This document shows, piece by piece, positions 45,425 through 60,247 of a DNA stretch of 64,000 nt; the first letter of the stretch is position 1; each line of letters begins with the position of its first letter. The translations under genes were made by a program, and so were the position numbers. Origin of the DNA: Halopseudomonas pachastrellae (GTDB taxonomy: Bacteria; Pseudomonadota; Gammaproteobacteria; Pseudomonadales; Pseudomonadaceae); assembly GCF_900114765.1 (NCBI RefSeq), contig NZ_FOUD01000011.1:62001-126000 (forward strand), in the 5' to 3' direction. A model generated the notes under the pieces. That model saw only the letters and a program-made list of their open reading frames with translations, searched no databases and was not told where the DNA came from.

Positions 45425-46140
45425 AGCGCCTGATGATCCCGTTGCTGCTGATGGCTTCGGCGTCGGCAGCAGCCGAGCAGATGCGTCACTCCATGCACCA
45501 CGGCTATTTCTATGGCCTGGAGGCCGACGCGCTGGAATACCGTTTTGGCGACAGCGGCGAGGAGCTTGGATACTGGAGCACCGAAGCCTGGTGGGGCACC
45601 GATGAGTTGAAAGCGCTTTGGCTGAGCGAGGCCGAATACAGCTTTGATCACGACAGTTGGGAGACGCTGGACAACCGTCTCGCGCTGCAAACCCCGGTCA
45701 GCGACTTTATCGATCTGCGCGGCGGCCTGCGCTTTGATACCCCAGACGGTGAGAACCGGCAGTACGCATTTGTCGGCCTGAATGGTCTGCTGCCCTACTG
45801 GCTGGAGATGGATAGTAACCTCTACGTGAACGAGTACGGCGATGTGTCGCTGGATCTCGCGCTGGAGTACGAACTGCTGTTGACCAATCGCCTGCATCTG
45901 ACCCCCGAGCTGGAGCTGGATGCGGCGTTGTCCGACGACGAAGCGGTGGGCGTCGGCCGCGGTCTCAGCGGCATGGAGGCGGGGTTGCGGCTGAGCTACG
46001 ACCTAGTTGATCGCTCCATCGTGCCCTACGTTGGCGTGCACTACGAGCGGGCTTTTGGTCGCACCGCAGACTTTGCCGCAGACGAGGGCGAGGATCGAGA
46101 CGGCTGGTTTGCTGTTACAGGTGTGCGGCTGATGTTCTAG
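45421..46140 (+). CDS. copB: Copper resistance outer-membrane protein CopB
   Basis: A 239-residue outer-membrane beta-barrel with signal peptide (MKRLMIPLLLMASASAAA) and a short Met/His stretch (EQMRHSMHHGYFYG). The barrel has the alternating pattern of CopB (EYRFGD, AEYSFDHDSWETLDNRLALQ cut for length, YERAFG) and ends in Phe. It is shorter than CopB versions that carry a long His-rich N-terminal region; here that metal-binding load sits in CopA instead. ATGA overlap with copA. Confidence 0.9.
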   Translation: MKRLMIPLLLMASASAAAEQMRHSMHHGYFYGLEADALEYRFGDSGEELGYWSTEAWWGTDELKALWLSEAEYSFDHDSWETLDNRLALQTPVSDFIDLRGGLRFDTPDGENRQYAFVGLNGLLPYWLEMDSNLYVNEYGDVSLDLALEYELLLTNRLHLTPELELDAALSDDEAVGVGRGLSGMEAGLRLSYDLVDRSIVPYVGVHYERAFGRTADFAADEGEDRDGWFAVTGVRLMF

Positions 46141-46279
46141 CCGCCAGTGCTGCGTTGCCGGTTGGAACCTCGTCGCCGGTCGGGCGGTCGCAAGGACATG
46201 GCGCCAGTGTTACCCGCCGCAGTGGCGAAAGGCGCCGGGGCTGCGGCAACGACGCAAACCAGACAGCAGGAGTGACCCG

Positions 46280-47020
46280 ATGACGGATCAACCGCGCGAC
46301 GCGACACTCTACCGTATGGTGATGAAAAACCACCTCTGCCCCTTTGGGCTGAAGTCCCTCGATCTGCTCAAACGCGAGGGTTTCACGGTGGACGACCGGC
46401 ATTTGACCAGCCGCGAGGAAACCGACGCATTTCAGCGCGAATACAACGTGGACACCACGCCGCAGACCTTTATCGACGGCCAGCGCATCGGCGGCTACGA
46501 CGAGCTGCGGCGGTACTTTGGCAAGTCGGTCAAGGAACCGGATGAGGTGACCTATCAGCCAGTTATCGCGGTTTTCGCCTGCACCGCGTTGATGGCGCTG
46601 GCGGCCAGCTGGGCCGCCTTGGGCACGGTATTTACCGTGCGCACGCTGGAGTGGTTTGTCGCTATCTCGATGTGTGTGCTGGCGATTCTCAAGCTGCGTG
46701 ACCTGGAAAGCTTTTCCAACATGTTTCTTGGCTACGACCTGCTGGCGCAGCGTTGGGTGCGCTATGCCTATCTCTATCCCTTTGGCGAGGCTTTGGCCGG
46801 CATTCTCATGATTGCTGACGCACTGCTGTGGCTGGCTATTCCGGTCGCGCTGCTGATCGGGGTCATCGGCGCAGTCTCCGTTTTCAAGGCAGTGTATGTC
46901 GACCGGCGCGAGCTGAAATGCGCCTGCGTCGGGGGCGACAGCAACGTACCGCTGGGTTTCATTTCGCTGACCGAGAATCTGATGATGGTCGGTATGGCTG
47001 CCTGGATGCTGATCAAGTAG
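46280..47020 (+). CDS. Glutaredoxin-MauE/DoxX-like membrane fusion protein
   Basis: A 246-residue fusion. Residues 1-82 are a glutaredoxin domain with a single-Cys active site (LCPFGLKSL, CPFG in place of CPYC) and the cis-Pro/GG block (TTPQTFIDGQRIGGYDEL). Residues about 95-245 form four membrane helices of the MauE/DoxX type, with a Cys pair in a loop (LKCACVGG). This suggests electron transfer of thiols across the inner membrane. It follows copB by 139 bases in the same direction, so a copper-stress thiol-repair role is inferred. Confidence 0.8.
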   Translation: MTDQPRDATLYRMVMKNHLCPFGLKSLDLLKREGFTVDDRHLTSREETDAFQREYNVDTTPQTFIDGQRIGGYDELRRYFGKSVKEPDEVTYQPVIAVFACTALMALAASWAALGTVFTVRTLEWFVAISMCVLAILKLRDLESFSNMFLGYDLLAQRWVRYAYLYPFGEALAGILMIADALLWLAIPVALLIGVIGAVSVFKAVYVDRRELKCACVGGDSNVPLGFISLTENLMMVGMAAWMLIK

Positions 47021-47082
47021 CGCCAGGCAGATAGACAGACACGCAGACCCGCGCAGTGCAAACGGCGGCAACAGGAGGCTAG

Positions 47083-47544
47083 ATGAAAGCAGAAACCTAC
47101 CGTGATTTGATCGAGTGGACACAGCAACTGCACGGCCAGTTGGCCAGCCGCCTGGAGGCTGGGGCAGCTGACAGCCAGACCGGTGAGCGCATGAGTGCGC
47201 TGCTGCGGTATTTGGCCGAGCACGAGCGCCGCATGCAGCAGATGGTGCTGCGCTTTGAGCAGCAGGCCGATATCAAGGTGCTGGACAGCTGGGTCTACGA
47301 CCACTTCACCGACAACCCGCGCATGCGCACGCTGGACGCAGGCCAGAGCTTCGCCGGGCTGGATCACGACGCCCTTTGCGCGCTGGTGTTTGACCTGCAC
47401 AACGACGCGCTGGACCTGTATCGTTATCTGCAGGGCCGGGCAGAGACGGCGGGTGGGCGTGAGCTGATGCAGGACCTGCTGGCAATGGAAAAGCACGAAA
47501 CCTTGCGCCTGGCCGAGCAGGCCCAGCGAGCTCAGGACCTGTAA
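47083..47544 (+). CDS. Hypothetical helical protein, possibly ferritin-like
   Basis: A 153-residue soluble four-helix-type protein without signal peptide. Helices carry Glu/His pairs in spacing used by di-iron ferritin-like folds: YLAEHERRMQQM in one helix, DLHNDALDLY in another and AMEKHETLRLAEQ in the last. I recognise no named family, and the metal-site reading is inference. It sits between the Grx-MauE gene and YjbQ in the same direction, so it may be part of the copper/oxidative-stress transcript. Confidence 0.65.
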   Translation: MKAETYRDLIEWTQQLHGQLASRLEAGAADSQTGERMSALLRYLAEHERRMQQMVLRFEQQADIKVLDSWVYDHFTDNPRMRTLDAGQSFAGLDHDALCALVFDLHNDALDLYRYLQGRAETAGGRELMQDLLAMEKHETLRLAEQAQRAQDL

Positions 47545-47572
47545 AATCCGTCACACATAAGGTGAAAGCAGC

Positions 47573-47998
47573 ATGTGGTTGCAGAAAGAGATTCGGCTCA
47601 AGCCCCGCGCGCGGGGCTTTCACCTGATTGATGACGAGATTCTGCGCGCGCTGCCAGAGCTGACGGACGTACGCGTTGGCCTGCTGCATCTGTGGCTGCA
47701 ACACACCTCGGCCTCGCTGACCGTCAACGAGAACGCCGACCCGCTGGTGCGCGGTGACTTCGAGGCATTCTTTCGCCGCGCGGTGCCGGACGACGCACCC
47801 TATTTCAAGCACACCTATGAAGGCCCGGACGACATGACCGCGCACATCAAGTCGAGCCTGCTCGGTGTGCAACTGACGCTGCCGGTGACCGCTGGCAGAC
47901 TCGCCGTTGGCACCTGGCAAGGCCTCTATCTCGGGGAGCACAGGGAGCACGCGGGCAGCCGCCGGGTGCTGGCGACGCTGCAGGGGCAGTGCGACTGA
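47573..47998 (+). CDS. YjbQ-family protein
   Basis: A 141-residue protein of the YjbQ/UPF0047 family (secondary thiamine-phosphate synthase activity reported for E. coli YjbQ). Signature blocks are present: [34 protein letters not shown] and the C-terminal [12 protein letters not shown]. The conserved His and Glu of the active pocket (HTSASL, GEHR) are intact. It follows the helical hypothetical gene by 28 bases. A GGGGC-GTTT-GCCCC hairpin lies just after it (48013-48026). Confidence 0.87.
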
Positions 47999-48136
47999 AG
48001 CGGGTGCATCCCGGGGCGTTTGCCCCAAATCAGGGCGAAAATGGAGCAGCCCGAGGCGAAAAATAGCCTGGTAGCAACGTCTGCATCGCCCGCAACTGGC
48101 TGAAAAACAGCCCATTTCCGATATTCATCGAAAAGC

Positions 48137-48152
48137 TGGCACCAAGCGTGCA
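48137..48152 (+). promoter_or_regulatory. Sigma-54 promoter upstream of the riboswitch operon
   Basis: TGGCACCAAGCGTGCA has the full -24 element TGGCAC and the -12 GC (48150-48151), with exactly ten bases between the GG and the GC. It predicts transcription start near 48163, about 55 bases ahead of the riboswitch. The only departure from consensus is G for T before the TGC. No clear NtrC dyad was seen in the 140 bases upstream, so the activator is not identified. The 376-base gene-free stretch 47999-48374 is explained by this promoter and the riboswitch. Confidence 0.75.
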
Positions 48153-48215
48153 TTAAGTCTCAGTGAAACGGGATGAGTCGTCATTGACTCATGACGCATC
48201 ACACATTGGAGTGGT

Positions 48216-48325
48216 ACTCAGGCGAACTAGGGTTCCGGCTTGCGCAGCAAGTGTCTGGTCCGAGAGTTTTCCGGCTCTCAAGGAATGAGGGCTACACGGC
48301 GGGATAAAAGCCCGGGAGACCGTCA
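48216..48325 (+). promoter_or_regulatory. Guanidine-I (ykkC class) riboswitch
   Basis: Three hallmark sequences occur in the right order and spacing: CTAGGGTTCCG (48227-48237), CTGGTCCGAGAG (48255-48266), and ACACGGCGGGATAAAAG with CCCGGGAGA (48294-48319). This is the ykkC consensus, and the ACACGG...CCCGGGAGA block is typical of subtype 1, which binds guanidinium. It sits in the leader 50 bases before the first gene of the ABC-transporter operon. The switching mechanism is not clear by eye: no obvious U-tract terminator follows, so control of translation or a non-canonical terminator is possible. Confidence 0.92.
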
Positions 48326-48374
48326 TGACGACGTTGTCCCCGTGCGCCTTTCTCACTGTGTAGGAGTTGTACCC

Positions 48375-49382
48375 ATGACCGCCCCACGCTTCAGCTTTGT
48401 CCGCAAGTCCCTGGCCGGCATCAGTCTGGCTGCCGCTGCCGTACTGTCTCCCGTTGCCGCTCAGGCTGCTGACTCCATGACCATCGGTACCGTTGTCTGG
48501 GCCGGTTACGGCCCGTTCTACGTCGCCGACAAGCTCGACCTGTACGACCAGTTTGGTCTGGATGTCGAACTGCAGTTCTTCAATGACCCGGCACTGCTGC
48601 CCTCTGCCATGGCCGGTAACGCGGTGGACGGTGCCATGCTCACGTACGATCAGGTGGTCGGCTCGGTGGCCAAGGGGCTGCCGCACCGCGTGGTGATGCC
48701 GATCGACTTCTCCTACGGCGGCGACGCTATCGTTGCCGAGAAATCCATTACCTCTGTTGCCGATTTCAAGGGCCAGCAGGTGGGCTTCAATCCGCTGTCG
48801 CCGTCTGACTTCTTGCTGGCTTACGCGCTGCAGATCAACGGCATGGGTGAGAGCGACATCGAGTCGGTCAACATGACGCCTGAGGGCATTCCCAGCGCCA
48901 TGGCCTCCGGCAGCCTGCCGATAGGCGTGACCTACGAGCCAAACGTCTCGCAGATCCTCGCCATGGGCGGTGGCGACAAATTCCACGTGGTGTACTCCTC
49001 CAAGGACGCACCGGGCCTGATCACCGACGTGCTGGCCTTCAGCGAAGACCAGATCAAAGAAAACCCGGAAGCCATCACCGCGATGATCAAGGGCTATCAG
49101 GCCGGTCTGGAATACATGCAGGCGCACCCGGAAGAAAGCGCCGAGATCATCGGCAAGGTGCTGGGCGTGAGCGGTGCCGAGGCGCTGGAGCAAATGGAAG
49201 GCGTCTACAACATCCCGCTGTCCGAGATGGGCCAGAACTTTGTTGAGTCCAGCGAAACCACGTCGTTCTATGGCAGCGGTGCGGTGATTGCCAATCTGTT
49301 GCTGAAGAACAAGCAGATCCCGGCGATCCCGGATTTTGCCGACACCTTCGATGCCAGCTTCGTCAGCGAACTGACCAAGTAA
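48375..49382 (+). CDS. NMT1/SsuA-type ABC transporter substrate-binding protein
   Basis: A 335-residue periplasmic binding protein with signal peptide (SFVRKSLAGISLAAAAVLS, cleaved after AAQAA). The fold belongs to the nitrate/sulfonate/taurine/thiamine-precursor group: IGTVVWAGYGPFYVADKLDLYD... (shortened) at the N terminus, then DGAMLTYDQVVG and KGQQVGFNPLSPSD. It should select the substrate for the permease and ATPase coded at the far end of the operon. GGAG lies eight bases before the ATG. Regulated by the riboswitch immediately upstream. Confidence 0.92.
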   Translation: MTAPRFSFVRKSLAGISLAAAAVLSPVAAQAADSMTIGTVVWAGYGPFYVADKLDLYDQFGLDVELQFFNDPALLPSAMAGNAVDGAMLTYDQVVGSVAKGLPHRVVMPIDFSYGGDAIVAEKSITSVADFKGQQVGFNPLSPSDFLLAYALQINGMGESDIESVNMTPEGIPSAMASGSLPIGVTYEPNVSQILAMGGGDKFHVVYSSKDAPGLITDVLAFSEDQIKENPEAITAMIKGYQAGLEYMQAHPEESAEIIGKVLGVSGAEALEQMEGVYNIPLSEMGQNFVESSETTSFYGSGAVIANLLLKNKQIPAIPDFADTFDASFVSELTK

Positions 49383-49388
49383 GACCAC

Positions 49389-49411
49389 GGGCAGGCGCGT
49401 TGCGCCTGCCC
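49389..49411 (+). terminator. Intercistronic hairpin after the binding-protein gene
   Basis: Ten-base perfect arms GGGCAGGCGC and GCGCCTGCCC with a GTT loop, six bases after the stop. No T run follows. Such structures often stabilise the mRNA of an abundant binding protein or reduce read-through to the genes behind it. Confidence 0.5.
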
Positions 49412-49434
49412 TGATCCGGACTTGCGGAGGAATC

Positions 49435-50460
49435 ATGTCCACGTCCAAACCACTTTACCGTTACGCCGATGGCCGGGTCTGGAACAGTCTGGCGATTGGT
49501 TACAGCGTTGGCGGCTACCTGATTGGTCTCGGCCTGCTGCTGACCCCGTTCTGGCTGGCCAAGCTGGGCGGGCTGCTGTTGCTGGCGCACGCGATGATCA
49601 TCGGCGCCTACCTGATTCACGAATTTGCCCATGGCACCATTTTCAGCAAGCCTGCGCACAACGCGCTGGCCGGTGAGGTGTTCAGCTGGATGACCGGCGG
49701 CTGCTACGCCGACTTTCAGGACCTGCGCCGCAAGCACATGCGCCATCACGTCGACCGTGCCGACGTCATCACCTTCGACAGCAAGGTGTTTATCAACAGC
49801 CTGCCGAGCTGGGTACGCAAACTGATTCTGGCCCTTGAGTGGGCGTATATCCCGGCGGTCGAGCTGATCATGCACTTCTACGTGGTGCTGCTGCCGTTTA
49901 TCAGCAAGAGCGAGAAACACCGTGCCCGTCGCGGCAAGGTGCTGACCGTGCTGTTGATTCGCGCTGCCCTGTTTGCCGTACTCGGCTGGCTGTCGTTCAG
50001 CGCGCTGGTGCTCTACTGCGTTGCCTGGCTGATCATGGTCACCGTGCTGCGCTTTGCCGATGCCTATCAGCACACCTACGACGCCTTCGCCGTGCTGGAG
50101 GAAGACGGCAAGATCCCGGCCGACAAGCTGCGTGACCGCGCTTATGAGCAGCTCAACACTTTCAGCAATGTGGTGTCGCTGCGCTGGCCGTCGCTCAACC
50201 TGCTGCTGCTCAACTTTGCCTATCACAACGCCCATCACGAAAAGCCGGTGGCGCCCTGGTATCGCCTGCCCAAGTTGCACGAAGAACTGTACGGCGATGC
50301 CTACCGTCAGGTGGTGCCGATGAGTGAACTGCTCAGCAGCTTCCACCGTCATCGCGTGCGCCGGGTACTGAGCGATGACTACGGCGTGTTCGTCGATGGC
50401 CCCAAACGTGCCGAGAACTTCTACGGCGCGGTGGGCGTGTCCTTCCTGACGGCGGTGTGA
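49435..50460 (+). CDS. Fatty-acid-desaturase-type membrane di-iron oxygenase
   Basis: A 341-residue integral membrane protein with about four to six helices and the three histidine boxes of the desaturase/hydroxylase superfamily: H62-EFA-H66, H101-MR-H104-H105, and H264-NA-H267-H268; H213 may be the extra ligand. These bind two irons for O2 activation. The N terminus (LYRYADGRVWNSLAIGY) is unlike fatty-acid desaturases. Its place in a guanidine-riboswitch operon suggests it hydroxylates an alkyl group of an imported guanidine; substrate is inference. RBS GGAGGAA. No ferredoxin is coded nearby. Confidence 0.87.
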   Translation: MSTSKPLYRYADGRVWNSLAIGYSVGGYLIGLGLLLTPFWLAKLGGLLLLAHAMIIGAYLIHEFAHGTIFSKPAHNALAGEVFSWMTGGCYADFQDLRRKHMRHHVDRADVITFDSKVFINSLPSWVRKLILALEWAYIPAVELIMHFYVVLLPFISKSEKHRARRGKVLTVLLIRAALFAVLGWLSFSALVLYCVAWLIMVTVLRFADAYQHTYDAFAVLEEDGKIPADKLRDRAYEQLNTFSNVVSLRWPSLNLLLLNFAYHNAHHEKPVAPWYRLPKLHEELYGDAYRQVVPMSELLSSFHRHRVRRVLSDDYGVFVDGPKRAENFYGAVGVSFLTAV

Positions 50461-50462
50461 GC

Positions 50463-51248
50463 ATGCAGACACTGGATTATCAGGGCCGCACCGTGGTGAT
50501 TACCGGTGCCGCCAGTGGCATCGGTCTGGGGCTGGCGCACGCGTTTGCCGAACAGGGCGCGCGGCTGGAGCTGGTCGACCGCAATGCGCAGGCGCTGGCC
50601 GCGACGGTTGAGCAGCTCGCAGTGCTGACGCAAGTGCACGGCCGGGTGCTGGACCTGAACGATGACGCGGCGGTGGCCGACTACGCCAGTCAGCTGGGCC
50701 AGCGTCAGGCACAGGTGAATGTGCTGATCAACAACGCCGGCATGGAGCTGCCGACGCCGCTGCAGGATGCCGCCGCCGATGCCAACCGGCGCTGGCAGCA
50801 CCAACTGGATAACAACGTGGTGTCGATGCTGCGCCTGACCCGCGCACTGCTGCCGCTGCTCGGCAAAGGCAGCAGCGTGATCAATCAGTCCTCGATCTGG
50901 GGGCTGAGTGCGGTGGCCGGGTTTTCCGCCTATGTCGCCAGCAAGCACGCAGTGATCGGCCTGACCCGCTCGCTGGCCTGGGAGATGGGCGGGCAGGGTA
51001 TTCGCGTCAATGCCGTGTGCCCCGGCTGGGTCGGCACCGACGCGGCCATGGCGTCCCTGCGCAACATGGCGCAGGACAGCGGCCGCAGTGAAGCCGAGGA
51101 GCTGGAGCACATCCTCGCCGCGCAGGCGATTCCCGAATTGCTCACCCCGGCCGATCTGGCCGGCACCTTTCTGTTTCTCGGCGCGCCGGCCTCGGCCGCC
51201 ATTACCGGGCAGGCCATCGTGGTCAGTCGCGGGGAGGTCATGCACTGA
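50463..51248 (+). CDS. SDR-family dehydrogenase 1 of the riboswitch operon
   Basis: A 261-residue classical short-chain dehydrogenase. Cofactor turn TGAASGIGLG (14-23), acidic D39 after the second strand (LELVDRN) pointing to NAD+ preference, NNAG (90-93), catalytic Ser143/144 with Y157 and K161 (YVASK). It begins two bases after the oxygenase stop, so it is translationally coupled and probably oxidises the hydroxylated product. Ends overlapping the next SDR gene. Confidence 0.9.
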   Translation: MQTLDYQGRTVVITGAASGIGLGLAHAFAEQGARLELVDRNAQALAATVEQLAVLTQVHGRVLDLNDDAAVADYASQLGQRQAQVNVLINNAGMELPTPLQDAAADANRRWQHQLDNNVVSMLRLTRALLPLLGKGSSVINQSSIWGLSAVAGFSAYVASKHAVIGLTRSLAWEMGGQGIRVNAVCPGWVGTDAAMASLRNMAQDSGRSEAEELEHILAAQAIPELLTPADLAGTFLFLGAPASAAITGQAIVVSRGEVMH

Positions 51249-52003
51249 TGTTGAAGGTTGATTTGGCGGGCCAGCGCATTTTGGTCACCGGCGCCGCGAC
51301 TGGTATTGGCCGCGCCTGCGCGCTGATGTTGGCGGGCCAAGGTGCCGAAGTGTGGATCAACCACCTCGGTCAGTCCGGTGCCAGCGCCGATCTGGTGGAA
51401 CAGATTCGCTCGGCCGGTGGCCGGGCGGTGGCGATTGAGGCGGATGTCAGCGACCCGGACGCGGTCGAGGAAATGTTCGCCTGCATCACCGCCACCGGCC
51501 CGCTGCACGGCTTGGTCAACAACGCCGGGATCATTCAGGAGCAGTCTTTTCTGGATACCTCGGAAGAGGATTGGCGGCGGATCATGGCGGTCGATCTGGA
51601 CGGTGTTTATTGCTGTTGCCGCTGCGCGCTGGAAAGCATGAGCGGCGCGGGCCGTGGCGCCATCGTCAATATCGCCTCCGAGCTGGGTCAGCTGGGGCGC
51701 GAAAACTACGTGGCCTACTGCACCGCCAAGGCGGGCGTGATCGGCATGACCAAGGCGCTGGCGCGTGAGTTTGCGCCCGCGATTCGCATCAACGCGGTGG
51801 CCCCCGGTCCGGTGGAAACCGCCATGGTCTCGCTGGAACACATGAGTGAAGAGTGGATTGCCAAGGAGCTGGCTATTCCGGCGGCGCGCCTTGGTCAGCC
51901 CGAAGAGATCGCGGCGGCGGTGTGCTTTTTGTTGTCGCCGGCGGCGAGCTTTTTCACCGGACAGACACTGGGCGCCAATGGTGGTGCCTGGATGGGTAGC
52001 TGA
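51248..52003 (+). CDS. SDR-family dehydrogenase 2 of the riboswitch operon
   Basis: A 251-residue classical SDR, clearly different from its upstream neighbour. Motifs: TGAATGIGRA (14-23), NNAG (91-94), S144, Y157, K161 (YCTAK). Residues after strand 2 (INHLGQS) lack the acidic residue, so NADP+ is possible. The C terminus is like FabG/glucose dehydrogenase members (LGANGGAWMGS). It overlaps the first SDR stop by one base. Two SDRs in sequence suggest two oxidation or reduction steps in the same pathway. Confidence 0.9.
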   Translation: MLKVDLAGQRILVTGAATGIGRACALMLAGQGAEVWINHLGQSGASADLVEQIRSAGGRAVAIEADVSDPDAVEEMFACITATGPLHGLVNNAGIIQEQSFLDTSEEDWRRIMAVDLDGVYCCCRCALESMSGAGRGAIVNIASELGQLGRENYVAYCTAKAGVIGMTKALAREFAPAIRINAVAPGPVETAMVSLEHMSEEWIAKELAIPAARLGQPEEIAAAVCFLLSPAASFFTGQTLGANGGAWMGS

Positions 52004-52034
52004 GCGCTGCCCTGCCAATTCAAGAGGAATGCCC

Positions 52035-52805
52035 ATGACAAGCGTACATATGGATCAGATCAGCTGGGTCGAATACCAGCAGCGTGTTGAACAGGGCGCC
52101 GTGGTGTTTCTGCCCTGCGGCGCGACCGAACAGCACGGCCCGCATCTGCCGCTGGGCACCGATGCCCTGCTGTCGACCGCGCTGAGCGCCGATGTGGCGG
52201 CGCAGATCGGCGGCATCGTCGCCCCGGCGCTGGCCTACGGCTACAAGTCGCAGCCCAAGTGCGGTGGTGGCCAGCATTTTTGCGGCACCACCAGTCTCGA
52301 CGGCGCGACTCTGATTGCGCTGGTGCAGGACGCGGTGCGCGAGTTTGCCCGCCACGGCGTCAAGCGACTGGTGCTGGTGCTGGGGCATTACGAGAACACC
52401 TGGTTTGTCACCGAGGGTATTCAGCTGGCGCTGCGTGAGCTTGGGCCCGGCTGCGAGCTGGAAGTCATGCGCCTTGAGCACTGGGACTTCTGCCGTGAAG
52501 ACACGCTGGACGATATCTTCCCCGACGGCTTCCCCGGCTTTGCGCTGGAGCACGCAGCGGTGATCGAAACCTCGCTGATGCTGCATTACCTGCCGCACCT
52601 GGTCAGCCTCGACAAGATCCCCAACGACCCGCCGGCGGACTTTCCGCCCTATGACATGTACCCGACCCGCACCGAGTGGGTGCCGCCGTCCGGGGTGCTG
52701 TCCTCGGCGCGGGGCTCGACCGCCGAGAAGGGCGCGCGCATGGCGGACGACATCGCCACCGGCATCACCGCCGCCGTTCGCCACGAATTCAAGCTGGAGG
52801 CCTGA
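52035..52805 (+). CDS. Creatininase-family amidohydrolase
   Basis: A 256-residue cytoplasmic metal-dependent amidohydrolase. Metal ligands appear as E32, H34 and D43 (TEQHGPHLPLGTD), H118 and E120 (GHYEN) and E172 (LEH). The GHYEN motif and the FPPYDMYP and LSSA stretches are like true creatininase (creatinine to creatine), not the GHGGN motif common in other family members. One tryptophan of the creatininase pocket appears to be Phe (FPGFALEH). A cyclic guanidine or lactam ring is the likely substrate. ATG chosen with AAGAGGA seven bases upstream. Confidence 0.9.
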   Translation: MTSVHMDQISWVEYQQRVEQGAVVFLPCGATEQHGPHLPLGTDALLSTALSADVAAQIGGIVAPALAYGYKSQPKCGGGQHFCGTTSLDGATLIALVQDAVREFARHGVKRLVLVLGHYENTWFVTEGIQLALRELGPGCELEVMRLEHWDFCREDTLDDIFPDGFPGFALEHAAVIETSLMLHYLPHLVSLDKIPNDPPADFPPYDMYPTRTEWVPPSGVLSSARGSTAEKGARMADDIATGITAAVRHEFKLEA

Positions 52806-52806
52806 G

Positions 52807-53454
52807 ATGCTGCCGCTGCTGCCATCGCGTACCGCCTTGCTGTTGATCGACATGCAGCGCGACTTCTGCGCCCCCGGCGGTTATGCCGATCAGGCCGGGC
52901 TGGATATCCAGTGCCTGCGCGCGCCAATCCCGGCCCAGCAGCGCCTGCTGGCCGCGGCGCGGGCGGCGGGCATGCTGGTGGTGCACACCCGCGAAGGGCA
53001 CCGCTCGGATTTGTCTGATCTGCCTGAGTGGAAGCGCATTCGCGCCGAGCGCAGCGGCGCGCCGATTGGTGCAGCAGGCCCGCTGGGGCGCTTGCTGGTG
53101 CGTGGTGAGTACGGCCATGACCTGATCGACGAACTGCAGCCGCAAGTCGGGGAGCCGGTGATCGACAAGCCCGGCTACTGCGCCTTTGCCGCCACCGACC
53201 TGGAACTGATCTTGCGCACGCGCGGCATCGACAGCCTGATCATCACCGGCGTGACCACCGAGGTGTGCGTCAGCTCCACCTTGCGCAGCGCCATCGATCG
53301 CGGCTTCAACTGCCTGACCGTGAGTGACGCCTGTGCCTCCGCGCACCCCGAGCTGCATGCGGCGGCGCTGGCAATGATCAACGTGGAAGGCGGCATCTTC
53401 GGCGAGGTGTGCGACAGCGCAGCGCTGCTCAGCGCCCTGCGGGAGGCGGCATGA
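52807..53454 (+). CDS. Isochorismatase-like cysteine hydrolase (biuret-hydrolase-like)
   Basis: A 215-residue cysteine hydrolase with the full triad D15 (LLIDMQRDF), K121 (IDKPGYC) and C154 (TTEVCVSS). Stretches such as FCAPGGYADQAG, TREGHRSDLSDLP and ILRTRGIDSLIITGVTT resemble biuret hydrolase and related C-N hydrolases of this family more than isochorismatase itself. It probably cleaves an amide or ureido bond of a pathway intermediate and releases ammonia or carbamate. One base separates it from the creatininase stop; it overlaps the next gene by four bases. Confidence 0.9.
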   Translation: MLPLLPSRTALLLIDMQRDFCAPGGYADQAGLDIQCLRAPIPAQQRLLAAARAAGMLVVHTREGHRSDLSDLPEWKRIRAERSGAPIGAAGPLGRLLVRGEYGHDLIDELQPQVGEPVIDKPGYCAFAATDLELILRTRGIDSLIITGVTTEVCVSSTLRSAIDRGFNCLTVSDACASAHPELHAAALAMINVEGGIFGEVCDSAALLSALREAA

Positions 53455-54233
53455 CCCAGGTACAGAAACTCTGGCCGCTGCTCACCGCGACGCACCATTA
53501 CGACAAGTCGATCTCGACCCGTGGCCGTGGCCACGGGGTGCAGATCGAGGCACCGATTCTGGCTTTTTTGATCGAGACCAAACAGGGGCGGGTGCTGTTC
53601 GACGTCGGCTGCGACTACAACAAGCTGACTGATCCTGCGCTGCGCGCGCGTTGGTACGACCCGGTGGAATTTCCCATGGGGCCGCCGCAGATGAGCGAAG
53701 AGCAGCGGCTCGAAGCCCATCTGGCGAAGCTCGGGCTGACCTGCAACGACATCGACATGGTGTTTCTCAGCCACCTGCACTTTGATCACGCCGGCGGCCT
53801 GTGCGACGTCTGCGGCGCTGAAGTACACGTGCACGAAGACGAACTGCAGGCCGCCCGTGAACCGGCCGATGACGCCTACTTTGCCGATGACTTTGCCGGC
53901 AATGTGCGCTGGCGCCTGCAGCAGGACGAGTACGACCTGCTGCCCGGCCTGCGTGCCATCAACACGCCGGGTCATACCGCCGGGCACATGTCATTGATGA
54001 TCGAACTGCCAACCGGCGCGCCGGTGATCCTCACCGGTGATGCCGCCGATCTGACCGAAAATCTTGATGACGAAATCGCCCCCGGCCTGTGCTGGCGCGA
54101 CCGCGAGGACATGGCGCTGGACAGCATTCGCAAACTCAAGCGCATTGCCGCTGAGACCGGTGCAGACCTCTGGCCCAACCACGACATGGCGTTCTGGCGC
54201 ACCCTCAAACGCTTCCCGGAGTACCACGCATGA
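53451..54233 (+). CDS. MBL-fold hydrolase (lactonase-like)
   Basis: A 260-residue metallo-beta-lactamase-fold hydrolase. The metal motif is complete: H108-L-H110-F-D112-H113 (SHLHFDHAGG), then NTPGHTAGH, the bridging Asp in LTGDAADL, and a C-terminal His (PNHDMAFW). The arrangement resembles N-acyl-homoserine lactonases, but in this operon a lactone, lactam or thioester intermediate is a more likely substrate. ATGA overlap with both neighbours shows tight coupling. Confidence 0.87.
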   Translation: MTQVQKLWPLLTATHHYDKSISTRGRGHGVQIEAPILAFLIETKQGRVLFDVGCDYNKLTDPALRARWYDPVEFPMGPPQMSEEQRLEAHLAKLGLTCNDIDMVFLSHLHFDHAGGLCDVCGAEVHVHEDELQAAREPADDAYFADDFAGNVRWRLQQDEYDLLPGLRAINTPGHTAGHMSLMIELPTGAPVILTGDAADLTENLDDEIAPGLCWRDREDMALDSIRKLKRIAAETGADLWPNHDMAFWRTLKRFPEYHA

Positions 54234-54988
54234 AAGCCGTTCCGGAGGCTTACCACGGCGTTTGGCAGCGTACGTTGCTGCGCTTGTCGGACGGCACCGA
54301 AGACACCACTACCCGCGTGTTCTGGCTCCAGAGCGCGCATCTGCACGCGGACCTGCGCATTCCTGATCCTGCGCCAAAGCTGCCGCTTGAGCGCGCAGCC
54401 CAGGCGGGCTTTGCCGGGCTGACCGAAGCCAGCCTTGGCCGCTGCCAGTGGCACCGCATCATCGATTTTCATCCCGACAGCGGCACCGACATCGGCAACA
54501 TGCAGTTTGTCAGCAGTGAAGAGGTACACGAGACCGCGCTCGACGACAGCTATCTGGAAATCTGGCAGCGGCTGCCAGCGTCGCGTGGCCCGGTCGCCGA
54601 GTTATGGCTGCGGAGCGCTGATGGCTCCGGCCGCCAGGCTTGTTTGCTGCGCGCTGGTGATTACTTCTTCTTTGCCGCTGACCGCCCGCAGCGCTTGGCG
54701 CCGGGCCGCTCCCTGCTCACTTATCTGCAGCACGAGAACGTGGGCAATGCCGAGCATTTGCTCGGCTGCGAGCTGACCTTTGGCCGTATCAGCGGGGCTG
54801 AGCAGCCCTGGCAGATTTTGTTCAGCACCTTGCCGGCGGCCAGCGGCAGCCTGTTCTCCGTGCCCGCTGATGCGGCGCACTGGGACGCGTTGCCGGTCGC
54901 CTGGCTGGGTGTTAACTCCCCCGAACATGGCTGGCGCCCGGCGCCGTTGCCCAGCCTGCAGCCCCTGACCGAGGAGACACTGGTATGA
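54230..54988 (+). CDS. Unrecognised protein of the riboswitch operon
   Basis: A 252-residue soluble protein without signal peptide, membrane helix or catalytic motif that I recognise. The sequence is rich in beta-strand patterns (GVWQRTLLRLSDG, TRVFWLQSAHLHADLRIP, QWHRIIDFHPDSGTD), suggesting a barrel such as a lipocalin/calycin-type fold, perhaps two in tandem. It overlaps both the MBL gene and the permease gene by four bases, so it is an integral part of the pathway. It could be a binding, chaperone or isomerase component. Confidence 0.72.
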   Translation: MKAVPEAYHGVWQRTLLRLSDGTEDTTTRVFWLQSAHLHADLRIPDPAPKLPLERAAQAGFAGLTEASLGRCQWHRIIDFHPDSGTDIGNMQFVSSEEVHETALDDSYLEIWQRLPASRGPVAELWLRSADGSGRQACLLRAGDYFFFAADRPQRLAPGRSLLTYLQHENVGNAEHLLGCELTFGRISGAEQPWQILFSTLPAASGSLFSVPADAAHWDALPVAWLGVNSPEHGWRPAPLPSLQPLTEETLV

Positions 54989-55827
54989 ATGCCCCCGCCC
55001 CCGTGCCTGAAGCACCCACCGCCGCCTCCGCTCGCAAACCGCGTGCGCGCTGGTGGGCTGTGCGTGGCAGCCTGTCGCCGCGCATCAGCGCACTGCTGAC
55101 CGCCTTTGGTCTGGCTGCGCCCTTTTTCATCTGGTGGCTCTATAGCGCCCTCGGACTAAACGATCCTTTGTTCATGCCGGGCCCCGGCGCGGTGCTGGAG
55201 CGGGTGGTCAGCTGGTGGCAGGAGGAGGGCCTGTGGGATGACATCTGGATCAGCGTTTACCGGGTGATGGCGGGTTTTGTGCTGTCGGCGATGATTGCCT
55301 TGCCGCTGGGGCTGTACCTGGGCACCTACAAGCCGGTGCAGGCGACACTGGAGCCGCTGATCGACTTTATCCGTTACATGCCGGCGGTGGCCTTTATTCC
55401 GCTGGTCATGCTCTGGGTAGGGATTGGCGAGGGCTCGAAGATCCTGATCATCTTTATCGGCACCTTCTTCCAGATGGTGCTGATGGCGGCCGAAGACATT
55501 CGCCGGGTGCCGATGGCGCAGATCGAAGCGGCGCAGACCATGGGCGCCTCGCGCAGCGAGATTATCCGTCTGGTGGTGTTGCCCTCGGCGCGCCCGGCGC
55601 TGCTCGACACCTTACGCATTACCTGCGGCTGGGCCTGGACCTATCTGGTGGTGGCCGAACTGGTGGCCTCCAACTCGGGGTTGGGCTACGCCATCCTGCG
55701 CGCCCAGCGCTACATGCACACCGACAAGATTTTCGCCGGCATCCTGCTGATCGGCCTCATCGGTCTGTTGACCGACCAGGCGTTCCGCTGGCTCGGTCGC
55801 CGCGCCTTTCACTGGCAGAAGAGGTAA
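54985..55827 (+). CDS. ABC transporter permease (SsuC/TauC type)
   Basis: A 280-residue inner-membrane permease with about six helices. The cytoplasmic coupling loop is intact (EAAQTMGASRSEIIRLVVLP), and PAVAFIPLVMLWVGIGEGSK is typical of nitrate/sulfonate/taurine importers. It partners the binding protein at the operon start and the ATPase immediately downstream. Overlaps the unknown gene by four bases. Confidence 0.92.
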   Translation: MNAPAPVPEAPTAASARKPRARWWAVRGSLSPRISALLTAFGLAAPFFIWWLYSALGLNDPLFMPGPGAVLERVVSWWQEEGLWDDIWISVYRVMAGFVLSAMIALPLGLYLGTYKPVQATLEPLIDFIRYMPAVAFIPLVMLWVGIGEGSKILIIFIGTFFQMVLMAAEDIRRVPMAQIEAAQTMGASRSEIIRLVVLPSARPALLDTLRITCGWAWTYLVVAELVASNSGLGYAILRAQRYMHTDKIFAGILLIGLIGLLTDQAFRWLGRRAFHWQKR

Positions 55828-55831
55828 GCCC

Positions 55832-56674
55832 ATGGACCAGTCCTGCATCAGCATTCGCAACGTGGGCAAGCAGTTTGCTGCCCGCAACCAGACCATCGAG
55901 GCGCTGCGTGACGTCAACCTTGAGGTAGAGCCTAACGAGTTCATCACCTTTGTTGGCGCCTCCGGCTGTGGCAAGTCGACCCTGCTGCGCATCATGGCCG
56001 GGTTGGAAACCCACAGCAGCGGCGACATTCTGCTGCGCGGCGAGCCGATCGACGGCCCCGGCGTTGACCGCGCCATGGTGTTCCAGCACTACAGCCTCTA
56101 CCCCTGGCTGACGGTGACCGAGAACATCAAGTTCTGCCGCCAGCTGAAGGTCATCTCCGACTCGGTACACAGCCAGTCTGACGTCGAAGCCGCCAGCGGC
56201 CGGGCCGATGCGCTGCTCAATCTGATGGGCTTGAAGAACTTTGCCGGCGCCTACCCCAGCCAGCTGTCCGGCGGCATGCAGCAGCGCGTCGCGATTGCCC
56301 GGGCGTTGATGCCACGACCGGACTTTTTGCTGATGGATGAGCCGTTCGGTGCATTGGACGCGCAGACCCGTGAGGTCATGCATGACCTGATCCTGCACGT
56401 GCACCGGCTGGAGAAGAGCACCATCCTGTTTGTCACCCACGATGTGGAAGAAGCGATATATCTGGGTACCCGCATTGTGCTGATGGCGCCGCGCCCCGGC
56501 CGGATCGACAGTATCTACGAGGTACCGCTGCCCAAGGTGCGGCATCAGGACATGAAGCTGGAGCCGGAATTTATCGCCCTGAAACGCGAGATTCTGACCC
56601 GCATTCGGGAAACCTCCGGGGTGCAGACCGATCTGGATCAGCTGGCGCGTTTGAGTGAAGGGGCCGGGTTGTGA
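55832..56674 (+). CDS. ABC transporter ATP-binding protein (SsuB/TauB type)
   Basis: A 280-residue ATPase: Walker A GASGCGKST (42-50), Q-loop VFQHYSLYPW, signature LSGGMQQRVAIARAL, Walker B LLMDEPFGALD and switch His VTHD. The sequence is typical of nitrate/sulfonate/taurine importers. It is the last gene of the riboswitch operon, four bases after the permease. No clear terminator was seen in the 106 bases before sutA. Confidence 0.93.
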   Translation: MDQSCISIRNVGKQFAARNQTIEALRDVNLEVEPNEFITFVGASGCGKSTLLRIMAGLETHSSGDILLRGEPIDGPGVDRAMVFQHYSLYPWLTVTENIKFCRQLKVISDSVHSQSDVEAASGRADALLNLMGLKNFAGAYPSQLSGGMQQRVAIARALMPRPDFLLMDEPFGALDAQTREVMHDLILHVHRLEKSTILFVTHDVEEAIYLGTRIVLMAPRPGRIDSIYEVPLPKVRHQDMKLEPEFIALKREILTRIRETSGVQTDLDQLARLSEGAGL

Positions 56675-56780
56675 TCCGGCTCTAGGGCAGGCGGTACAGG
56701 CGAAAAAATTTCCTCCGGAGACTAGCCAAACCCCCTCGATGAACTATATATAGCCTGTTTTCCACTGTGAGGATTCAGGC

Positions 56781-57086
56781 ATGAGTGATGATCTGGACGA
56801 CGATCTGGATGGGATGGACGATTCCGAGGTCGACGATCAGGACGATGTGGCCGGCGGCAGCGACGATGGTACCGAGGTCAGCAGCAAGTCGCGCAAGAAG
56901 AAAGCCGCAGCCAGTGAAGACTTTGAAGGCGCCTCTGTGGAAGCCAAGGAGCGCGAGCGGGAGATGCTGGCTCGTCAGATCGAAGAGTTCATGGCGCGCG
57001 GTGGCAAGGTGCAACAGATCGACGACAACGTGGTCTCCGATCCGCCGAAAAAGCCTGAAAACAAGTACGGCAGCCGTCCTATCTGA
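56781..57086 (+). CDS. sutA: SutA transcriptional regulator
   Basis: A 101-residue, very acidic protein of the SutA family, which binds RNA polymerase and supports transcription in slow-growing Pseudomonas. The N-terminal half is disordered and Asp/Ser rich, then a basic KSRKKKAAA patch, a short helix (AKEREREMLARQIEEFMARGG) given in part, and the conserved C-terminal KKPENKYGSRPI. Position next to the HAD-xerC-dapF-lysA block matches P. aeruginosa. ATG preceded by GTGAGGATTCAGGC. Confidence 0.85.
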   Translation: MSDDLDDDLDGMDDSEVDDQDDVAGGSDDGTEVSSKSRKKKAAASEDFEGASVEAKEREREMLARQIEEFMARGGKVQQIDDNVVSDPPKKPENKYGSRPI

Positions 57087-57097
57087 CGCTGCCGTAC
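57065..57097. terminator. Hairpin between convergent sutA and HAD genes
   Basis: Ten-base perfect arms GTACGGCAGC and GCTGCCGTAC around a 13-base loop that contains the sutA stop codon. No T run on either strand, so it may work as a bidirectional mRNA end structure. Confidence 0.4.
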
Positions 57098-57104
57098 CGG
57101 CCGC

Positions 57105-57815
57105 TCAGCGTTTGGCGTAGCGCTGGTAGCGGTTCAGCCAGGGCGGAATCTCGCTCAGGCAGCGCACTTCGCCGTGGGCCCGTTGCTGGCCCGTCCAGGC
57201 ATTGCCCTGTGGGTTGAACCACAGGGTATGCATGCCAACATCCAGGGCGCCCTGGATGTCGTCTCCCGGATGATCCCCGATATGCAGCGCCTGTTGCGGC
57301 TCGACCCCGGCGCTGTTCAGCGCCGCCAGGAAGGGTGCCGGGTCCGGCTTGCTGATACCCACCTCATCGGCTGACACGATGATGCTGAAATAGCGATCCA
57401 GCCCGAGTCGGCGCACATCGGCGTTGCCGTTGGAAATGCACGCCAGCTGGTATTGCTGCGACAGCAGTTGCAGCACCAGCTCCATGTGCGGGAAGTATTC
57501 CAGCCGGTGGCGGGCATCGATGAATACCTCGAACCCGGCGCGTGCCAGACGTTGCGCCTCGTCTGCCGAGTAGCCGGCCTTGCGCAAACCCAGCTCCAGC
57601 ACGGCGATACGCAGTGGCGTCACCCGGTGGCGCAGCGCCGGGTCACCATCCAGCACCTCTGCCAGCAGCGCCTTGCGCGTGTCCTGATCGCGGGCGGCGG
57701 CGTAGTTCGGCGCCTGTTTGCCTAGCCAGTCGGCCAGCACCCGTTCGGCGTTGGCGACGACCGATTCGGTCTCCCACAGGGTGTTGTCGAGGTCAAAGGT
57801 CACCAGCTGAATCAT
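57105..57815 (-). CDS. HAD-IA family hydrolase (YigB-like)
   Basis: A 236-residue haloacid-dehalogenase-type phosphatase. The nucleophile and acid/base aspartates are in [10 protein letters not shown] (D9 and D11 region), motif II Ser/Thr in ACISNGNA, motif III Lys in [10 protein letters not shown], and motif IV in [13 protein letters not shown]. YigB of E. coli dephosphorylates FMN; the gene is usually next to xerC, as here, with a four-base overlap. The substrate in this organism is not shown. Confidence 0.88.
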
Positions 57816-58735
57816 TTGTCTGCCTTGCGTTTGGCTCTGGGGTGGGCCTGATCATACACCTGGGCCAGGTGCTGGAAATCAAGATGGGTATAGATCTGGG
57901 TGGTGCTGATATCGGCGTGGCCGAGTAGCTCTTGCACTGCCCGCAGGTCGCCGGAGGACTCCAGCATGTGGCTGGCGAAGGAGTGGCGCAGCATGTGTGG
58001 ATGCAGGTGCTGGCCGATGCGCTCCACGCCATGACGACGCAGGCGCAATTGAATGGCGCGCGGGGTGAGCGCGCTGCCACGCTGGCTGACGAACAGCGGC
58101 TGGGCGCTATCGCCGTTGGCCGGGCGTACGCTGAGCCAGTCCTGCAGGGCGCGACGCGCCTGGCGGCCGACCGGCAGCACACGGGTCTTGTTGCCCTTGC
58201 CGGTGACGCGCACTTCGCCCTGGCTCAGGTCGAGATCGCTGACATCCAGCCCGGCCAGCTCCGACAGCCGCAGACCGGAGGAGTAGAACAGCTCCAGCAT
58301 GGCCTGATCACGGCGGCCGAGCCAGTCGTCCTCGCCCGGGCTGTCGAGCAGCTGGGTGGCTAGGTCGGCGTCCAGCGTGCGCGGCAGGGGCCGTGCGGCC
58401 TTGGGGGCGCGCAGATCGAGCGCGGGGTTTTGCTGTGCACGCCCTTCGCGCTGCAGAAAGCGGTAGAAGCTGCGGATGGCGCTGAGCAGGCGCTGCAGGC
58501 TGCGGGGCGCCAGACCCTGCTGGTGTTGGCTGGCGATAAAGTGGCGCAGGTGCTGGGTGTCCAGCCGGTCCCAGCCCGGCAGATCGCGTGCGGCGCGGTG
58601 CTGATCCAGACTCAGCAGATCGTGGCGGTAGGCTTCCAGGGTCCGCGGCGACAACCTGCGCTCGATGCGCAGGTGATCGAGAAATGCGCTGATATCGGGG
58701 TCGGCGACGCCGGCCGGCTCAGGCGTGGTTTTCAT
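57812..58735 (-). CDS. xerC: Tyrosine recombinase XerC
   Basis: Site-specific recombinase that, with XerD, resolves chromosome dimers at dif. It has 307 residues. The N-terminal SAM-like DNA-binding domain is followed by the catalytic domain with R156 (SGLRLSEL), K180 (TGKGNK), H247-x-x-R250 (HPHMLRH), H273 (LGHADIS) and nucleophile Y282 (IYTH). Start chosen at MKTTPEP; the frame stays open upstream but runs antisense to nothing conserved. Overlaps DUF484 by 17 bases and the HAD gene by four. Confidence 0.95.
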
Positions 58736-59420
58736 CGGCCAGCGGGCGTTGGCGCAACAGCACGCGGGCAAGCGCGTCGGCGACGTAGCCAAGGAACAGG
58801 GTGCCGGTGGCGCTGCGGTATTGCTGGGCGTCTTCGCTGCCCAGTGCCAGCACGCCGTGCAGGCCCTGATAGCGGATGGGCGCCAGCGCGGTGGATGCGA
58901 CCTGCTCACCGTGCTCGCCAAACAGGAAGTTCAGCTCGGCCGGGCGCAGTGCGCCGGCAACCGGCTTATCGCTGTCGAGCAGGTGGCCGATGGCCTCCTT
59001 GGCGGCGGTGTGGGTAACGCAGTGGGCGTTGCTGTAGCGGTCCGCTTCGGTAAACAGAATCAGGCTGACGAAGGGCACCTGAAAATCGGTGCGCAGGCTG
59101 TCTTCCAGCGTGGCCACCACCTGATCCGGGCTTTGCGCTTCGAGCATGCCGAGAATCAGCCGGCGGCTCTTGTCGAACAGCCGGTCGTTTTCGCGCGCGG
59201 TGTCCATCAGCTGGTTCAGCCGGTGGCGCACATCGATATTGCGCTCGCGCAGCAGTTTGACCTGCCGCTCGACCAGCGACACCGCATGGCCGGCTTCGTG
59301 CGGCACGATCAGGTCAGCCAGCAGCTCGTCATGCTCGACGAAAAAGGCCGGGTGACGCTGCAAAAACTCCACCACGCGGGCGGCTTCGAGTTCGTCAGGA
59401 TGGGGCGGTTGTTCTTTCAT
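58719..59420 (-). CDS. DUF484 family protein
   Basis: A 233-residue protein of the YigA/DUF484 family, which has a GAF-like domain preceded by a coiled coil. The N-terminal block [22 protein letters not shown] and the central [12 protein letters not shown] are diagnostic. Function unknown; almost always coded between dapF and xerC, as here. The start at MKEQPPH overlaps the dapF stop by four bases. Confidence 0.9.
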
Positions 59421-60247
59421 ACGCGAATCTGTCCCTCGTAGACGCGGGTGGCCGGGCCGGTCATCAGCACGGGTTGGCCGGGGCCTGCCCATTCGATTTG
59501 CAGGCGGCCGCCGGGCAGGTCGATCTGCACCGGCGAGTCCAGCAGGCCGAGGCGAATGCCGGCCACGGCCGCGGCGCAGGCGCCGGTGCCGCAGGCCTGG
59601 GTTTCCCCCACACCACGCTCGAAAACGCGCAGACGGGCGTGCTGACGATCGACCACCTGCATAAAGCCGGCGTTGACCTTGCGCGGGAAGCGCGGGTGGG
59701 CTTCGATCAGCGCACCCAGGCGCTCCAGCGTACCGTCCTGCACGTCGGGCACCAGGGTGACGCAGTGCGGGTTGCCCATGGAAACGGCAGCTACCTGCAG
59801 CTGTTCACCGGCCACCTCAAGCGTGTACTCGATAGCTTCGGCGTCGGCCTGGAAGGGGATCTCGGCGGGCACAAAGCGCGGCGCACCCATGTCGACCGTG
59901 ACCTGGCGGTCGCGGTTGATGCGCAGCACGATAGGGCCGCCGGCGGTTTCGACGTGGATTTCCTGCTTGGCGGTCAGGCGTTTGTCCTGCACAAAGCGGG
60001 CGAAGCAGCGTGCGCCGTTGCCGCACTGCTCGACCTCACTGCCATCGGCATTGAAGATGCGGTAGCGGAAGTCGGCGTCGGGTGTGCTCGGCGGCTCGAC
60101 CAGCAACAGCTGGTCAAAGCCGACGCCAGTGTGGCGATCAGCCCACTGGCGGATTTGCCGTGCCGTCAGCTGGGCGTGCTGGGTCACCAGGTCGATGACC
60201 ATAAAGTCGTTGCCCAGCCCGTGCATCTTGGTAAATCGCAGCAGCAT
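59417..60247 (-). CDS. dapF: Diaminopimelate epimerase
   Basis: Converts LL-diaminopimelate to the meso form for peptidoglycan and lysine synthesis. 276 residues in two similar domains with the catalytic cysteine pair C75 (EQCGNGARC) and C219 (QACGTGACA). [15 protein letters not shown] at the N terminus is the family signature. One base separates it from the lysA stop. It is cofactor-independent, and no residue is missing. Confidence 0.96.

Follow-up and report, generated by a model that had tools for sequence, protein, structure and literature searches.

Which compound is taken up and broken down by an operon that stands behind a riboswitch of a guanidine class and yet carries none of the genes for carboxylase, deiminase or allophanate hydrolase? 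This question is raised by a 64,000-nucleotide stretch of Halopseudomonas pachastrellae DNA (assembly GCF_900114765.1, contig NZ_FOUD01000011.1, positions 62,001 to 126,000; hereafter, the window), in which ten co-directional genes, spanning 48375-56674 on the plus strand, lie downstream of a Guanidine-I riboswitch. This conserved operon is most plausibly a modified version of the known methylguanidine demethylation system, with another kind of oxygenase and further accessory enzymes. Its function is probably the oxidative N-dealkylation of an imported alkylguanidine with release of guanidine; that methylguanidine is the main substrate is an even bet. Evidence comes from a homologue of the recently described lyase MgdL encoded in the operon, from the riboswitch itself, and from the nearly constant presence of a guanidine carboxylase in genomes that carry related oxygenases. 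The features of the locus, all on the plus strand, are the following:

48137-48152, plus strand: sigma-54-type promoter site (-24/-12), TGGCACCAAGCGTGCA, with 10 of 11 consensus positions
48216-48320, plus strand: Guanidine-I riboswitch aptamer RF00442 (Rfam, 84.7 bits, gathering score 63, E 1.1e-13)
48375-49382, plus strand: substrate-binding protein of an ATP-binding cassette (ABC) importer, NMT1/SsuA-like (family and profile matches)
49435-50460, plus strand: membrane di-iron protein of the FA_desaturase family, proposed to hydroxylate alkylguanidines (PF00487; histidine boxes)
50463-51248, plus strand: short-chain dehydrogenase 1 (family match)
51248-52003, plus strand: short-chain dehydrogenase 2 (family match)
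52035-52805, plus strand: creatininase-like hydrolase with Phe-Ala for Trp-Asp, proposed acylguanidine hydrolase (profile and alignment)
52807-53454, plus strand: isochorismatase-like amidohydrolase with a guanylurea-hydrolase signature (homology and residue pair)
53451-54233, plus strand: metallo-beta-lactamase-fold hydrolase, lactonase-like (profile matches)
54230-54988, plus strand: MgdL-family protein, proposed carbinolamine lyase, with catalytic-type D41 and R43 (homology and alignment)
54985-55827, plus strand: ABC importer permease (profile matches)
55832-56674, plus strand: ABC importer ATPase (profile matches)

The original prediction, made from the nucleotide sequence without database searches, had assigned these gene families as the profile searches now do. 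Its statement that most of the genes overlap by 1-4 bases is slightly overstated: such overlaps occur at four of the nine junctions, three others are gaps of 1-4 nucleotides, and the remaining two are gaps of 31 and 52 nucleotides.

Control of the operon

The guanidine-I riboswitch in front of the operon is real. The original prediction had named this class and had specified that assignment to another ykkC subtype would speak against it; in the Rfam search of the window, no other ykkC subtype reaches its own gathering score. The sigma-54 promoter that had likewise been predicted is borne out by a different kind of evidence. Taken alone, the site is within chance, given that about 4.7 matches with one mismatch are expected per window; it is supported because it is conserved across related loci, and not by its single-site score. 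Sites that agree with the consensus at no fewer than 10 of 11 positions occur within the 200 nucleotides upstream of the riboswitch in 55 of 66 related regions, as against 0.9% of 6,600 random 200-mers drawn from the same loci, in a sample that contains many closely related loci but also includes Betaproteobacteria and Acidithiobacillus. Terminator-like or sigma-70-like sites were not found near the riboswitch, and the folding of the leader gives an uninformative z of -1.24. Nitrogen shortage is probably a second signal that switches the operon on, besides guanidine.

A lyase homologue and a membrane oxygenase

MgdL (A0A265DXW6), described in 2025 from Vreelandella boliviensis, is an N-(hydroxymethyl)guanidine lyase and the partner of the dioxygenase MgdH (PMC12508155). 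The protein encoded at 54230-54988, which the original prediction had left as an unknown protein, is homologous to proteins that occupy the genomic position of MgdL, with a profile probability of 99.95 and 30% identity (81.6 bits), the comparison being with these positional counterparts of the published protein. The catalytic Asp-x-Arg pair is invariant between the family of this protein and its distant MgdL-position relatives, and the beta-barrel fold of MgdL is present. Its sole profile match is a weak one to HRI1, and a profile search against PDB sequences returned nothing meaningful. Among 11 distant stretches examined, the lyase homologue is found directly behind a 2-oxoglutarate (2OG) dioxygenase in nine, and one distant relative sits within a guanidine-carboxylase operon. 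On the strength of this homology, we propose that the gene encodes an MgdL-family protein that would act as a carbinolamine lyase. Two further loci show other surroundings of the family. In one (L094:7398-9181), an HRI1/MgdL-family gene directly follows the gene for a Rieske-type oxygenase, a possible third oxygenase partner of the MgdL family; in the other (L098:741-9397), peptide-type ABC transporter genes stand between an MgdL-like gene and an allophanate hydrolase.

Membrane di-iron enzymes are expected to have three histidine boxes, and those of the oxygenase are invariant across 22 aligned rows. PF00487 is its only family match, and it does not have the 2OG/Fe(II) dioxygenase fold of MgdH. 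No PDB sequence matches it at E 0.001, and a plasmid search returned a single distant match, from Gloeothece (36%). We read this protein as an alkylguanidine hydroxylase mainly because the MgdL-family lyase adjoins it, in the position that MgdH has elsewhere. The genome from which the window derives also encodes a paralogue with 44% identity (L087:8642-13292, contig C19), located in a second ABC-importer cluster that includes a xylose-isomerase-like TIM-barrel gene and is without a riboswitch. Two oxygenase copies are present in operons L062, L068, L076 and L078, and additional binding-protein genes in L062, L076 and L078; perhaps these doubled operons serve two substrates.

Related operons and the guanidine carboxylase pathway

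Related loci were collected by scanning a genome collection of 84,980 species with the oxygenase alignment, and the best 80 of 214 were kept. In 68 of these 80, a fuzzy motif search places a Guanidine-I motif ahead of the oxygenase at a distance of 2 kb or less, and Rfam confirmed Guanidine-I in all 16 motif-positive loci tested. Riboswitch and sigma-54-type site thus both recur in other proteobacteria in front of the same pairing of importer and oxygenase. Among the 12 loci without the motif, eight were searched with Rfam, which detected no Guanidine-I and two Guanidine-II riboswitches. Four of the 12 are truncated by a contig end (L021, L056, L072 and L076), and in six others guanidine carboxylase pathway genes immediately precede the locus (L067, L069, L070, L079, L080 and L081); for the remaining two (L028 and L059), no riboswitch is detectable and neither explanation applies.

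The original prediction also held that the window has no guanidine carboxylase, which agrees with the region 46000-60000; such a gene is nevertheless present elsewhere in the genome. On contig C12, a second Guanidine-I riboswitch (91.5 bits) heads an importer, the carboxyguanidine deiminase subunits and the guanidine carboxylase, and contig C37 carries a gene resembling allophanate hydrolase (47% identity). Across the 80 loci, a gene of the guanidine carboxylase pathway is found within 11 kb in 32, and a guanidine carboxylase match is present in 79 of the 80 genomes (50/50 and 29/30), the sole genome without one being a Thiobacillus metagenome-assembled genome (L072). As a control, 248 genomes of the window's own family were compared. 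A carboxylase match occurs in all 62 genomes that have a clear orthologue of the oxygenase, defined by 60% identity or more and including the window genome, versus 94 of the 186 others, in which five genomes with only a 44-51% paralogue are counted; some of the carboxylase matches, those with identities of about 57%, may represent urea carboxylases.

Dehydrogenases and hydrolases

Gene content was counted by a profile scan of those 63 loci whose downstream sequence extends over 7.5 kb or more. The creatininase-like gene and the dehydrogenase gene are both present in 53 of these and both absent in 10; in two loci (L053 and L054) the dehydrogenase is encoded on the other strand. The pairing in 53 of 53 is consistent with a two-step reaction in which the dehydrogenase would produce an acylguanidine and the creatininase-like enzyme would hydrolyse it. 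The creatininase-like enzyme was originally predicted to be of creatininase type, and it does score above the TIGR04448 cut-off (380.9 versus 235 bits) and keeps the residues that we take to be the creatininase metal ligands. It departs from true creatininase in that the Trp-Asp of 1j2t, presumably residues 174-175 and important in the active site, is replaced by Phe (54) or Tyr (5), followed by Ala, in 59 of 59 rows. Because of this replacement, we do not file the protein as a creatininase despite its score. The lactonase-like gene is present in 45 of the 63 loci.

The isochorismatase-like protein had been described as biuret-hydrolase-like. The family assignment stands (54% identity to the biuret hydrolase 6azo), but the protein falls under the NCBIfam cut-off for biuret hydrolase (278.9 versus 370 bits) and carries the signature of a guanylurea hydrolase. 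It is 67% identical, over 87% of its length, to a cysteine hydrolase encoded by the plasmid pMET-2, which we identify, through the plasmid name and the adjacent deaminase gene, with the guanylurea hydrolase BB_00025 demonstrated in PMC9800807. Lys145 and Gln215 are important residues of the biuret hydrolase BiuH (PMC7948467). Across 55 rows of the operon proteins, the former position holds Tyr in 52 and Phe in 3, and the latter Glu in all 55; the pMET-2 hydrolase has Tyr and Glu. Given this close relation and the same Tyr/Glu pair, the protein can be predicted to be a guanylurea hydrolase of the pMET-2 type.

Proposed pathway and alternative readings

From the computed riboswitch, conserved promoter site, homologies, gene linkage and co-occurrence, we infer the substrate and every catalytic step of the following scheme. 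The sigma-54 promoter, under nitrogen shortage, and the Guanidine-I switch, in the presence of guanidine, would jointly permit expression. The ABC importer would bring in an alkylguanidine, most likely methylguanidine and its close relatives, the membrane di-iron protein would hydroxylate the carbon adjoining the guanidine nitrogen, and the MgdL-family protein would cleave the resulting carbinolamine to guanidine and an aldehyde. The freed guanidine would then be broken down for nitrogen through the guanidine carboxylase pathway encoded elsewhere in the genome. In a side branch, a dehydrogenase might oxidise the carbinolamine to an acylguanidine, which the creatininase-like or the guanylurea-hydrolase-like enzyme would hydrolyse. 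A specific form of this branch, which we put forward tentatively, is a second, formaldehyde-sparing route in which the dehydrogenase turns N-(hydroxymethyl)guanidine into N-formylguanidine and the creatininase-like enzyme, a natural Phe-Ala variant with relatives that act on creatinine, splits the latter into formate and guanidine. The import of a substituted guanidine, its hydroxylation, C-N bond cleavage and use for nitrogen, with guanidine as the signal and probable product, had been anticipated by the original prediction and gains support from the carboxylase co-occurrence, the MgdL homology and the guanylurea-hydrolase match, with the exact substrate unproven.

Several observations weigh against this scheme. 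It offers no step for the lactonase-like protein or the second dehydrogenase. Among named NCBIfam profiles, the oxygenase matches just two, CrtW and that of the arginine hydroxylase GntB, both far under cut-off. The lyase homologue is absent from five of the 63 loci (L067, L069, L074, L080 and L081) and was not found in the six Gallionellaceae-type genomes searched. The co-occurrence figures, such as 79 of 80 and 62 of 62, are inflated by the kinship of the genomes. Finally, the Guanidine-I switch of V. boliviensis is reported not to bind methylguanidine (PMC12508155), so that the substrate by itself would not be expected to turn the operon on.

Alternatively, the substrate could be a larger natural alkylguanidine, with a side chain beyond methyl; the aldehyde or acid set free from it would then be handled by the lactonase-like enzyme and the dehydrogenases. 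With a lactonase-like protein and a pair of dehydrogenases, the operon has more than demethylation would require, and the oxygenase is weakly related to GntB (26 bits). Nevertheless, we consider this rather unlikely: the smallest operon seen (L063), which consists of the binding protein, oxygenase, lyase homologue, permease and ATPase, has neither dehydrogenases nor the lactonase-like enzyme, and the published MgdL is narrow, accepting N-(hydroxymethyl)guanidine but not the dimethylguanidine intermediates according to PMC12508155. Creatinine or another cyclic guanidine is a still less probable main substrate. Under that reading, a ring carbon is hydroxylated as in creatol, a dehydrogenase yields the ketone, and the creatininase-like and guanylurea-hydrolase-like proteins open the ring to methylguanidine or guanidine. 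Creatinine is a cyclic acylguanidine, the conversion of creatinine through creatol to methylguanidine is known chemistry, and the creatininase-family enzyme is accompanied by a dehydrogenase in 53 of 53 loci; however, this enzyme has Phe/Tyr-Ala for the Trp-Asp pair, and both genes are missing from 10 of the 63 oxygenase loci.

Detoxification of guanidino compounds, as opposed to nitrogen acquisition, is highly improbable as the main function. It is suggested by an EamA-family transporter gene, possibly for an exporter, which is present in 50 of the 63 loci and in most relatives follows dehydrogenase 2 and precedes the creatininase-like gene (for example, L013:12535-13428). At that place the window operon has just 31 nucleotides, and the gene is likewise missing from its nearest relatives, L004 and L005. 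Moreover, the conserved sigma-54 site, the importer and the near-universal guanidine carboxylase pathway all point to nitrogen acquisition.

Significance and comparison with known systems

The natural sources of guanidine in bacteria and the routes to it are described as an open question (PMC12186494), and methylguanidine demethylation has been published for one halophile (PMC12508155). The present analysis, based on the best 80 of 214 relatives, suggests that oxidative guanidine release, through a different oxygenase class, occurs widely among Pseudomonadaceae, Burkholderiales, and iron- and sulfur-oxidisers. It also offers testable functions for proteins annotated as "fatty acid desaturase", "creatininase" and "hypothetical protein". 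If true, the formaldehyde-sparing route, together with the pairings of MgdL relatives with a 2OG dioxygenase, a membrane di-iron protein and, in one locus, a Rieske-type enzyme, would make guanidine demethylation modular, with one lyase family serving three unrelated oxygenases. Among the matches listed from Creative Commons-licensed literature, none reports these genes together downstream of a Guanidine-I riboswitch. A 2007 paper that names both a desaturase and ykkC was considered and rejected as a precedent, the desaturase being tied there to B12 and not to ykkC.

The closest known system is MgdH/MgdL of V. boliviensis (PMC12508155), which likewise combines an MgdL-family protein beside an oxygenase with guanidine riboswitch control, a link to the guanidine carboxylase pathway and an ABC importer. 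In contrast, the oxygenase of the window operon is a membrane protein of the FA_desaturase family and not a 2OG dioxygenase; the operon has its own importer, along with a lactonase-like protein, two amidohydrolases and two dehydrogenases, and the guanidine carboxylase is encoded outside it. The pMET-2 guanylurea hydrolase is close in sequence to the isochorismatase-like protein and has the same Tyr and Glu residues, but its operon has a deaminase and neither oxygenase nor lyase. Creatininase of Pseudomonas putida (1j2t) belongs to the same family as the creatininase-like protein, which differs in its Phe/Tyr-Ala motif and in its dehydrogenase companion. Guanidine carboxylase operons behind Guanidine-I switches have the same riboswitch class and a related SsuABC-like importer; the window operon, which has neither carboxylase nor deiminase, would feed the pathway that they encode.
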